DNA of 51,353 bases from Anaerolineales bacterium. GTDB taxonomy: Bacteria > Chloroflexota > Anaerolineae > Anaerolineales > E44-bin32. Every line of letters starts with the position of its first letter. Position 1 is the first letter of the stretch. The stretch is taken from assembly GCA_004376895.1 (NCBI GenBank), contig SOIH01000022.1:1-51353 (forward strand), read 5' to 3'. Made by a program: the position numbers and the translations under genes. The notes beneath the pieces were generated by a model. That model had not been told where the DNA came from and did no database searches. It saw nothing but the letters and a program-made list of their open reading frames with translations. This document shows, piece after piece, positions 15,823 through 18,053 of this stretch.

Positions 15823-15828
15823 TATAAT
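15823..15828 (+). promoter_or_regulatory. TATAAT -10 box of the octahaem cytochrome operon
   Basis: A perfect TATAAT is followed six bases later by an in-frame TTG (15835), then GAGGAG (15841-15846) and ATG 15853. Transcription should start near 15835 and give an 18-base leader for the ATG start. No consensus -35 element is visible. Confidence 0.5.
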
Positions 15829-15852
15829 TGACCATTGCAAGAGGAGATTGTC

Positions 15853-17136
15853 ATGGGTGAGGAGAAAGCTGTTGCAAAAGATGGGTTAAGCGCTCCACGC
15901 GTTCTGGTCTTAGGGCTGGTGGTTGTGATTATCGTCCTCGGTCTTGCGTTTGTCATCCAAACGTATGCATCCGCGCTTACTCTACCTGTAATTGAAAAGG
16001 TAGATGCTCTAGCAACGAGCAAGGATGATTGTGTAGTCTGTCACCGCGAGACGTCGCCGGGCATCGTCCAGCAGTTTGGGACTAGTTCGATGGCAGCTGG
16101 CGAAGTGGAGTGCAGAGATTGCCATGAGGTCGAGGCAGATTATCCAGGAGCGGTTGAACATGAGGGTGGTTTTGTATTGAAGGAACCATCGCCGGCGATG
16201 TGTGAGCGCTGTCACGAGGATGAAGTCGCTCAATTCAACCAGAGCCGGCATGCTTTACCGGCATATGTCGCTTATCAGGGGACACAAAATCTAAGCGATG
16301 ACCTGCTTGCCCTGTATGAGGGGGTCCCTGAAGGTGGATACCAACCGGATAAAATGCGGAATGCGCTTCATGCTTTGGAAGGCGAAGCCATCACATATTT
16401 TGCTTGTGAACAGTGCCATAACATCGGCAAGCCAAAAGCGGATGGATCTGTCGGAGATTGTACGAAGTGCCATTTACGGCACGAATTCAGCATCGAGCAG
16501 GCTCGCAAACCTGAGACCTGCGGCGCATGCCACATCGGTCCTGATCACCCGCAATGGGAGATTTATCAGGAGTCGCCCCACGGCATCGCCTATATGACCG
16601 GCGGTGACCGGTGGCATTGGGAAGCGGAATCGGGCACGCTCACCGTCGTAGATTTCCCAGCGCCGACCTGCGCGACCTGTCACTTCAGCGGATTCGGGAC
16701 AAGCTCGACAACCCACGATGTCGGGGACCGGCTTACGTGGTATCTATTCGCCCCAATAAGCCCGCGAAGACCCGCTTGGCAGGAAAATCTGGAGCGCATG
16801 CAGGGCGTCTGCCAGGCATGCCACAATACAACATTCATCGACGAATTCTTCAATGCGGCCGATGCGGCAACGGAAGCAGTGAATGCACGGGTTGTAGAGA
16901 GCAATGAGATCGTCCAGCCCTTGAAAGACCAAGACTTACTGACAAAAGAGCCTTTCGACGAACCGTTTGATTTTGTGTATTTCGAGCTCTGGCACCACTG
17001 GGGCCGCACTGCGAAATTCGGCGTCTGGATGCAGGGTCCTGATTACGTTCAGTGGCATGGGGCGTATGAGGTTCTTAGCGATCTGGCTGAATTGAACGAG
17101 ATGGTGGAGGAGAAGCTGGCGACCGAGGGGCAATAA
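15853..17136 (+). CDS. membrane-anchored octahaem cytochrome c, HAO-like
   Basis: A 427-residue multihaem cytochrome with an N-terminal TM anchor (about residues 16-40) and the rest exported. There are eight CxxCH haem sites, from CVVCH (Cys60) through CRDCH, CERCH, CEQCH, CTKCH, CGACH and CATCH to CQACH near residue 320. The stretch CGACHIGPDHPQWEIYQ followed by SPHGIAY is characteristic of the hydroxylamine-oxidoreductase-like octahaem family, as is the C-terminal GPDYVQWHGAYE. Family members oxidise hydroxylamine or hydrazine, or reduce nitrite or hydroxylamine; which applies here cannot be told from sequence. It was shortened to ATG 15853 because of GAGGAG six bases upstream. Two bases separate it from the membrane protein below, so they form an operon. 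Confidence 0.88.
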   Translation: MGEEKAVAKDGLSAPRVLVLGLVVVIIVLGLAFVIQTYASALTLPVIEKVDALATSKDDCVVCHRETSPGIVQQFGTSSMAAGEVECRDCHEVEADYPGAVEHEGGFVLKEPSPAMCERCHEDEVAQFNQSRHALPAYVAYQGTQNLSDDLLALYEGVPEGGYQPDKMRNALHALEGEAITYFACEQCHNIGKPKADGSVGDCTKCHLRHEFSIEQARKPETCGACHIGPDHPQWEIYQESPHGIAYMTGGDRWHWEAESGTLTVVDFPAPTCATCHFSGFGTSSTTHDVGDRLTWYLFAPISPRRPAWQENLERMQGVCQACHNTTFIDEFFNAADAATEAVNARVVESNEIVQPLKDQDLLTKEPFDEPFDFVYFELWHHWGRTAKFGVWMQGPDYVQWHGAYEVLSDLAELNEMVEEKLATEGQ

Positions 17137-17138
17137 AT

Positions 17139-18053
17139 ATGTATTACCTGGCGCGTGTTTTCCCAATTCTAAACCGGGTTAAGCTGCCGTTAACAAGAGA
17201 CCAATTGATGCTGTTGATGGCCGCGGTTAACCTGTTCTTCCTCGGCCTCGACATCTACCTGGCGCATAGCATCAGCGGAACGATCGTGCTTTATGAGTGG
17301 ATACCCATCATCTTCGGGCCATTCGCCGGGGCGCTTTTGCTCGTTGCAGGGATTGTGGCACTAAGAAAACGTGATTTGGCGACGGTGATAGCGAATGTGA
17401 TCTTTCTCACCAGTGTTGCTGTCGGTTTGCTTGGCGCCTATTTTCATGTGGTCCGGGCGGTTCTCCCGACGGGGCCTATTGGGGCGCGCGTTAATATAGA
17501 TTTGCTCGTGTGGGCACCACCAATCCTTGGTCCGCTCACATTTTCCCTGGTGGGGTTGATCGGAATCAGCGCCGTTTGGTTGGAGGATCCAGCGGATAGC
17601 GGCCGGCTGGCCCTGCTTTCCAAGCGCAGGATCCAACTGCCTTACAGCAAGACGCAGGCGTATCTTTTTATAGTTGGACTGGGTACGCTGGCAACGCTAA
17701 TTAGCAGCGTGCTGGACCATGCGCGCACGAATTTCCATAATCCCTGGCTCTGGGTCCCTATTACTGCCGGCGTCTTTGGAACTGTTGTCGCTGCTGCTCT
17801 GGGTAGCATGGATCGACCGAGCCGGGGGGATATCATCGTGTATATTTCGGCGATGGTTCTGCTCCTGATCACCGGCGTTGTCGGTTCGGTGCTGCATATT
17901 CAAGAGGACCTCACCGCACAGGGTACGTTCGTCTTGGAACGATTCATCCGCGGCGCTCCCTTCTTGGCGCCGCTTCTTTTTGCAAATATGGGGACCTTAG
18001 GCTTGATCGTACTGCTGGACCCACGCGAATCTCCGACGGAAACCAATATATAA
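17139..18053 (+). CDS. 8-TM membrane protein with internal duplication, candidate redox partner of the octahaem cytochrome
   Basis: A 304-residue integral membrane protein with about eight TM helices; I do not recognise a named family. It is internally duplicated. His43 and His103 in the first half correspond to His194 and His253 in the second (spacings 60 and 59). Each lies at the end of an odd-numbered helix and is followed by a Pro-rich helix start (WIPIIFGP, WAPPILGP, WVPITAG, GAPFLAP). The halves end in LEDP (148-151) and LLDP (292-295). The arrangement recalls NrfD-like quinol dehydrogenases in topology, and paired histidines could bind haem b, but both ideas are inference. It is tightly coupled to the cytochrome gene, with GAGGGG in its 3' end as ribosome binding site. 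Confidence 0.7.
   Translation: MYYLARVFPILNRVKLPLTRDQLMLLMAAVNLFFLGLDIYLAHSISGTIVLYEWIPIIFGPFAGALLLVAGIVALRKRDLATVIANVIFLTSVAVGLLGAYFHVVRAVLPTGPIGARVNIDLLVWAPPILGPLTFSLVGLIGISAVWLEDPADSGRLALLSKRRIQLPYSKTQAYLFIVGLGTLATLISSVLDHARTNFHNPWLWVPITAGVFGTVVAAALGSMDRPSRGDIIVYISAMVLLLITGVVGSVLHIQEDLTAQGTFVLERFIRGAPFLAPLLFANMGTLGLIVLLDPRESPTETNI

Follow-up and report, generated by a model that had tools for sequence, protein, structure and literature searches.

A conserved gene pair of an epsilon-Hao-like octahaem cytochrome and a duplicated eight-helix membrane protein in Chloroflexota

Octahaem cytochromes of the HAO type carry electrons between nitrogen compounds and a quinone-linked partner, which differs between lineages. 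The window analysed here is a contig of 51,353 nucleotides from an Anaerolineales bacterium. A preliminary description made from the letters alone had marked 15823-18053 as a self-contained respiratory module, composed of a membrane-anchored HAO-like octahaem cytochrome and a duplicated membrane protein, with the latter as its quinone-side partner. What kind of octahaem does the first gene encode, and is the second protein its electron-transfer partner?

The octahaem gene and its classification

The marked span is exact save for its start, which precedes the probable start codon of the first gene by some 30 nt. The features of the pair are as follows.

15840..15847, + strand: Shine-Dalgarno-like AGAGGAGA, 5 nt before ATG 15853 (sequence)
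15853..17136, + strand: octahaem cytochrome c, 427 aa, HAO superfamily (PF13447), reductive epsilon-Hao type (profile match, alignment, tree)
15901..15957, + strand: N-terminal transmembrane anchor, aa 17-35 (hydropathy; AlphaFold2 helix 13-41 in an otherwise poor model)
16030..16044, + strand: haem 1 motif CVVCH, aa 60-64
16111..16125, + strand: haem 2 motif CRDCH, aa 87-91
16201..16215, + strand: haem 3 motif CERCH, aa 117-121
16405..16419, + strand: haem 4 motif CEQCH, aa 185-189, aligned to the catalytic P460 haem site C229-H233 of HAO
16459..16473, + strand: haem 5 motif CTKCH, aa 203-207
16519..16533, + strand: haem 6 motif CGACH, aa 223-227
16543..16548, + strand: D231-H232, aligned to the active-site D267-H268 of HAO (alignment)
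16669..16683, + strand: haem 7 motif CATCH, aa 273-277
16810..16824, + strand: haem 8 motif CQACH, aa 320-324
17029..17055, + strand: M393-x7-W401, epsilon-Hao signature, W401 aligned to the cross-linking Tyr467 of HAO (alignment, PMC8940962)
17139..18053, + strand: eight-helix duplicated membrane protein (TM8), 304 aa, unnamed family, proposed membrane electron-transfer partner
17184..17588, + strand: repeat 1 of TM8, aa 16-150, covering TM1-4; H43 (17265-17267) and the motif GxxGxxxH103 (its H at 17445-17447) are invariant
17631..18032, + strand: repeat 2 of TM8, aa 165-298, covering TM5-8; H194 (17718-17720) and the motif GxxGxxxH253 (its H at 17895-17897) are invariant

The octahaem reading frame (15835/15853-17136, +) contains the eight CxxCH motifs and the HAO-family segment CGACHIGPDHPQ that had been reported for it. 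Such a number of motifs is far from chance: when the protein was shuffled 20,000 times, it had 0.02 motifs on average and never more than 2. Because AGAGGAGA sits 5 nt upstream, ATG 15853 is the likelier start codon, preferred over TTG 15835. The N-terminal anchor claimed for the cytochrome corresponds to the single strong hydrophobic segment of the protein, found by hydropathy at aa 17-35. The AlphaFold2 model of the octahaem protein was poor (pLDDT 53, pTM 0.40) and was left out of the reasoning.

The octahaem matches PF13447 with 102 bits against a curated cut-off of 21.9, which adds a new member to an already known enzyme group, the HAO superfamily. Its best solved relative is IhOCC of Ignicoccus hospitalis (PDB 4qo5), which scores 162 bits with the family profile, while HAO (1fgj) and hydrazine dehydrogenase (HDH, 6hif) score lower, at 123 and 92 bits, respectively. 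The window octahaem shares with the latter two enzymes eight haems in the same order, the catalytic haem 4 and the Asp267-His268 pair. All eight CxxCH motifs are collinear with the haems of HAO, with a one-to-one match for motifs 4 to 8, and the alignment places the catalytic haem 4 at C185-H189. The Asp-His pair is invariant across the octahaem groups compared, with the exception of IhOCC, which has Val where HAO and the window clade have the active-site His268. Like the window octahaem, IhOCC is membrane-associated and has no Tyr at the cross-link position; to our knowledge, no eight-helix partner has been reported for it.

The feature that sets the window octahaem apart from HAO and HDH is the cross-link position itself. 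In a MAFFT alignment of 76 octahaem sequences, the cross-linking Tyr of the oxidative HAO/HDH enzymes is absent and W401 occupies the position of Tyr467, with M393 eight residues earlier. This M-x7-W arrangement is present in 75 of the 76 sequences, the exception being truncated at a contig end. When the position is placed through the IhOCC profile alignment, it holds Gln instead, and HHalign of the octahaem profile to the C-terminus of HAO, whose reference segment is identical, letter for letter, to the PDB sequence, has a confidence near 1 and gives no usable alignment in that stretch. The equation of W401 with the Tyr467 position therefore relies on the MAFFT alignment and on the published signature, with Tyr398 lying three residues upstream of W401. 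According to the literature, a Trp at the Tyr position and a Met eight residues earlier constitute the epsilon-Hao signature (PMC8940962), and a missing cross-link Tyr is a mark of reductive enzymes (PMC8940962, PMC12758564). Because Trp replaces the cross-linking Tyr and Met stands eight residues before it, the octahaem is, by its sequence, of the reductive epsilon-Hao type and not of the oxidative HAO/HDH type. The original label of HAO-like thus holds for the superfamily and not for the oxidative type. An epsilon-Hao would also be accompanied by a NapC/NrfH-type partner; no four-haem gene lies beside the pair, and the gene for the eight-helix protein is found there.

Linkage and exchange of membrane partners

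The co-occurrence of the two genes was surveyed in 396 genomes of the window genome's class (Chloroflexota), where scores against the octahaem profile fall into clearly distinct bands. In the band of the window protein (at least 677 bits), the TM8 gene lies directly downstream on the same strand in 40/40 loci with readable flanks; 41 loci had flanks, and the contig of the 41st ends inside the gap. The same pair is present in Chloroflexota loci found by a search with the membrane protein, as well as in three loci of Desulfosporosinus, a member of another phylum, at about 30% identity. One nested octahaem relative, in the 97% complete genome G105, has 53% identity and no TM8 gene. The neighbour survey revealed no further gene conserved beside the pair, and no pathway can be read from the neighbours.

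Several observations were made at individual loci. The pair of Desulfosporosinus metallidurans (L056:2500-3640) is broken into short frames, reflecting either decay or a draft-assembly error. Crp/FNR-type regulators are encoded near the octahaem in Desulfosporosinus (L054:5501-6166) and at a NapC-linked Chloroflexota locus (L083:8384-9247), which suggests control by oxygen or nitrogen oxides. At L047:7978-8985, a cytochrome P460 gene (PF16694, E 1e-40, two stretches) lies directly behind the pair and is followed by ccmE and then by a cytochrome c assembly gene.

The membrane partner changes with the octahaem clade. In the sister band (299-340 bits), no locus carries a TM8 gene, and a four-haem gene stands directly upstream in 17 loci (16 loci with flanks and G222); all nine of the four-haem genes scanned belong to NapC/NirT (PF03264). 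In epsilon-Hao-type modules, NapC/NrfH is known to form the quinol side (PMC3701875), and since it holds that place in the sister clade, TM8 stands where a quinol dehydrogenase is expected. A third octahaem type comprises three loci encoding proteins of 745-776 aa with nine CxxCH motifs: L136:3053-5287 (G572), L143:2754-4997 (G522) and L147:3047-5374 (G475). The only one of these scanned, that of L136, has CopD and cytochrome b5 domains N-terminal to the octahaem, and this fusion represents a third way in which an HAO-like octahaem is provided with a membrane partner. A further band (L129-L134), with proteins of about 550 aa (1073 aa in L131), also has M-x7-W, with neither NapC nor TM8 adjoining. 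In a tree from a quick maximum-likelihood run, the octahaems of the NapC group and those of the CopD group each occupy one side of a branch, and so do those of the TM8 group save for the nested G105. Each partner type consequently marks its own group; the placement of HAO and IhOCC on the tree is not usable and was disregarded, as the reference branches are very long.

The eight-helix protein and its family

The TM8 reading frame (17139-18053) starts two bases past the octahaem stop, in agreement with the gap first described. The prediction of eight membrane helices is supported by an AlphaFold2 model computed with 26 homologues as input (pLDDT 83, pTM 0.83), and the duplication by HHalign, which aligns the two halves as a repeat with a probability of 98.7% and an E-value of 4e-16. 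The statement that the protein belongs to no nameable family also stands. Searches of Pfam, PHROGs and PDB sequences with the window protein gave no match, its match in NCBIfam is at chance level (E 0.46), and no clear match to a known unrelated family arose. It has no CxxCH and no PF03264 match that would place it with NapC/NrfH. A Foldseek search with the model identified no solved relative of this fold, as none of its matches had an E-value below 0.2. Weak Pfam matches of single members (holin, DUFs, cytochrome b561 at E 0.011) are inconsistent between members and were rejected, as was a VIA match of the model to 3d19 (Z 14.7, rmsd 3.8 over 238 residues), which falls in the chance range for helical bundles.

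Conservation was assessed in 46 proteins, consisting of 26 octahaem-linked members and 20 distant members of the kind described below. His 43, 103, 194 and 253, together with the glycines of both GxxGxxxH motifs, are invariant in all 46, and the four His with GxxGxxxH are the sole polar helix residues conserved throughout. In the AlphaFold2 model, these His lie in helices 1, 3, 5 and 7, each 23-25 residues past the helix start. The charge distribution suggests that the N-terminus is inside, in which case the model would put all four His near the outer face, at one depth. The outer side of the membrane is also where c-type haems are attached. Membrane cytochromes b hold their haem by one His on each of two helices that are not neighbours in a four-helix bundle, and glycines lie close by. 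Because the arrangement of His and glycines in TM8 matches this pattern, two haem b sites are the simplest reading, and the protein probably binds two haems b, one predicted per bundle. Four further residues, E53, D193, R196 and R268, do not vary within the octahaem branch and differ in the GMC branch; owing to their outer-face position, they are candidates for a docking or quinone site.

Distant members of the family occur in other Chloroflexota classes with no haem proteins nearby (profile E-values down to 1e-31), and their homology spans both repeats and all four His. In 14/14 of the non-octahaem loci examined that had enough flank, the gene order is TM8, gluconate-2-dehydrogenase subunit 3 (PF13618) and GMC flavoenzyme; one of these loci is on a plasmid of Granulicella (Acidobacteriota), where the GMC-linked protein is WP_013573000.1. 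The catalytic subunits of these operons are unrelated to the octahaem. The classical third subunit of gluconate 2-dehydrogenase is a c-type cytochrome, and in the GMC operons found here TM8 is present instead. A longer cluster, composed of a TPP enzyme, an enolase-like protein, TM8, gluconate dehydrogenase subunit 3 and GMC, recurs in Chloroflexota (L069-L081) and in L155, the conjugative plasmid pACIX903 of Granulicella tundricola. In the one annotated record examined, the family member is labelled 'hypothetical protein'.

The preliminary description had proposed that its module would fall if homologues of the second gene occurred mostly without the cytochrome. Many such homologues do exist; yet they accompany a different redox enzyme, which strengthens the redox-partner role of TM8. 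The idea of a self-contained module with the cytochrome proved too narrow, as TM8 also occurs in GMC operons. The assignment of the second gene as the membrane (quinone-side) partner gains from the 40/40 linkage, from NapC/NrfH in the same place in the sister clade and from homologues with another membrane-coupled dehydrogenase, and these comparisons support it well. There is about an even chance that TM8 is the founder of a widespread, undescribed dihaem-b quinone-reactive family, plugged into both octahaem N-oxide reductases and GMC/gluconate-dehydrogenase-like flavoenzymes.

Proposed function, alternatives and meaning

The two proteins very probably form an enzyme at the outer face of the cell. 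The preferred reading, with a probability of roughly 0.6, is that the pair forms a membrane-bound, quinol-dependent reductase for nitrite and/or hydroxylamine, with TM8 as its dedicated partner. In the mechanism that we infer, of which haem b, quinol oxidation, direction and substrate are the predicted parts, the octahaem protein would be the catalytic subunit, anchored at the outer face. Its active site would comprise a five-coordinate haem 4 in an HAO-like Asp-His pocket with no tyrosine cross-link, as in epsilon-Hao. TM8 would consist of two four-helix bundles, with His in the first and third helix of each at the outer end, probably holding one haem b each. Quinol would be oxidised by TM8 near the outer face, electrons would pass from its haems b to the haem chain of the octahaem, and nitrite or hydroxylamine would be reduced at haem 4. 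TM8 would thus do the job that a NapC/NrfH-type cytochrome does for epsilon-Hao.

The closest known system is epsilon-Hao with the NapC/NrfH-type cM552 (CycB), the reverse-HURM of Nautilia and Campylobacter. Both octahaems lack the cross-link Tyr and have Met-x7-Trp, both have a membrane partner that should supply quinol electrons, and this very pairing occurs in the sister clade of Chloroflexota. In contrast, the partner in the window is an eight-helix, four-His protein lacking CxxCH, and the window octahaem has an N-terminal anchor of its own. What is new is the pairing, in which the membrane partner of a reductive octahaem comes from a family for which Pfam has no model. Neither the pair nor the TM8 family was described in the literature searched (open-licence papers).

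Genome content does not settle the substrate of the octahaem. Among the pair-bearing genomes, narG is above the cut-off in 2/36, so most of them, including the window genome as assembled, are without a Nar-type nitrite source; strong NrfA matches occur in two and a fragment in a third. The distribution of nitrate reductase and NrfA, considered as an explanation of the occurrence of the pair, does not account for it. The window genome itself (87.5% complete) has no narG above the cut-off and no NrfA, which would suit another substrate, such as sulfite, tetrathionate, NO or a metal, reached through the same membrane partner. Desulfosporosinus, a carrier of the pair, reduces sulfate, and octahaem relatives such as OTR act on sulfur compounds. 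Nevertheless, this alternative is considered unlikely, as the octahaem falls in the HAO/epsilon-Hao branch and has the HAO Asp-His pocket. A comparably low probability is given to an oxidative run, a forward hydroxylamine:quinone module in which the octahaem oxidises hydroxylamine (or hydrazine) and TM8 reduces quinone. The Trp at the cross-link position and the Met eight residues before it are of the reductive type, and the nearest solved relative is IhOCC rather than HAO or HDH. Such a module would, however, fit the HAO-like pocket and the gene behind the pair in L047, cytochrome P460 being a hydroxylamine-oxidising family, and by analogy the GMC-linked homologues would carry electrons to quinone.

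Two other alternatives concern TM8 itself. The protein could be redox-inactive and serve as an anchor, a substrate channel or an assembly factor, given that its haem and quinone sites are predictions, that the octahaem has its own anchor and that Foldseek yields no known redox fold. This is improbable in view of the unrelated flavoenzyme that the family also serves in 14/14 loci, a fact that rules out a channel specific for nitrite or hydroxylamine and leaves a role in c-type maturation unlikely. TM8 also takes the place of NapC/NrfH, and its conserved polar helix residues are confined to the four His and GxxGxxxH. Very improbable is a highly divergent, haem-free quinol oxidase of the NrfD/PsrC type. 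NrfD, too, has eight predicted transmembrane helices and serves nitrite reductases, on the quinol side of the reductase as proposed for TM8. However, TM8 has no sequence match to it, and NrfD models are absent from the weak Pfam matches of 26 members even at E 10. The iron-sulfur partner that NrfD requires is not linked at the pair loci, and the four invariant His stand in paired positions. The NrfD/PsrC fold is also not among the Foldseek and VIA matches of the model, which does not exclude a common fold.

If the quinol-dependent reductase is the correct reading, Chloroflexota and Desulfosporosinus have an N-oxide reductase that involves neither nrfA nor NapC/NrfH and in which annotation pipelines would recognise no more than a multihaem cytochrome and a hypothetical protein. 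This would bear on which organisms make ammonium (or remove hydroxylamine) in wastewater, sediments and acid mine sites. The recurrence of TM8 with a different enzyme would explain the route of many GMC dehydrogenases of Chloroflexota and Acidobacteriota to the quinone pool. The clade-wise swaps of partners around one octahaem core constitute a natural experiment on the rewiring of respiratory modules.
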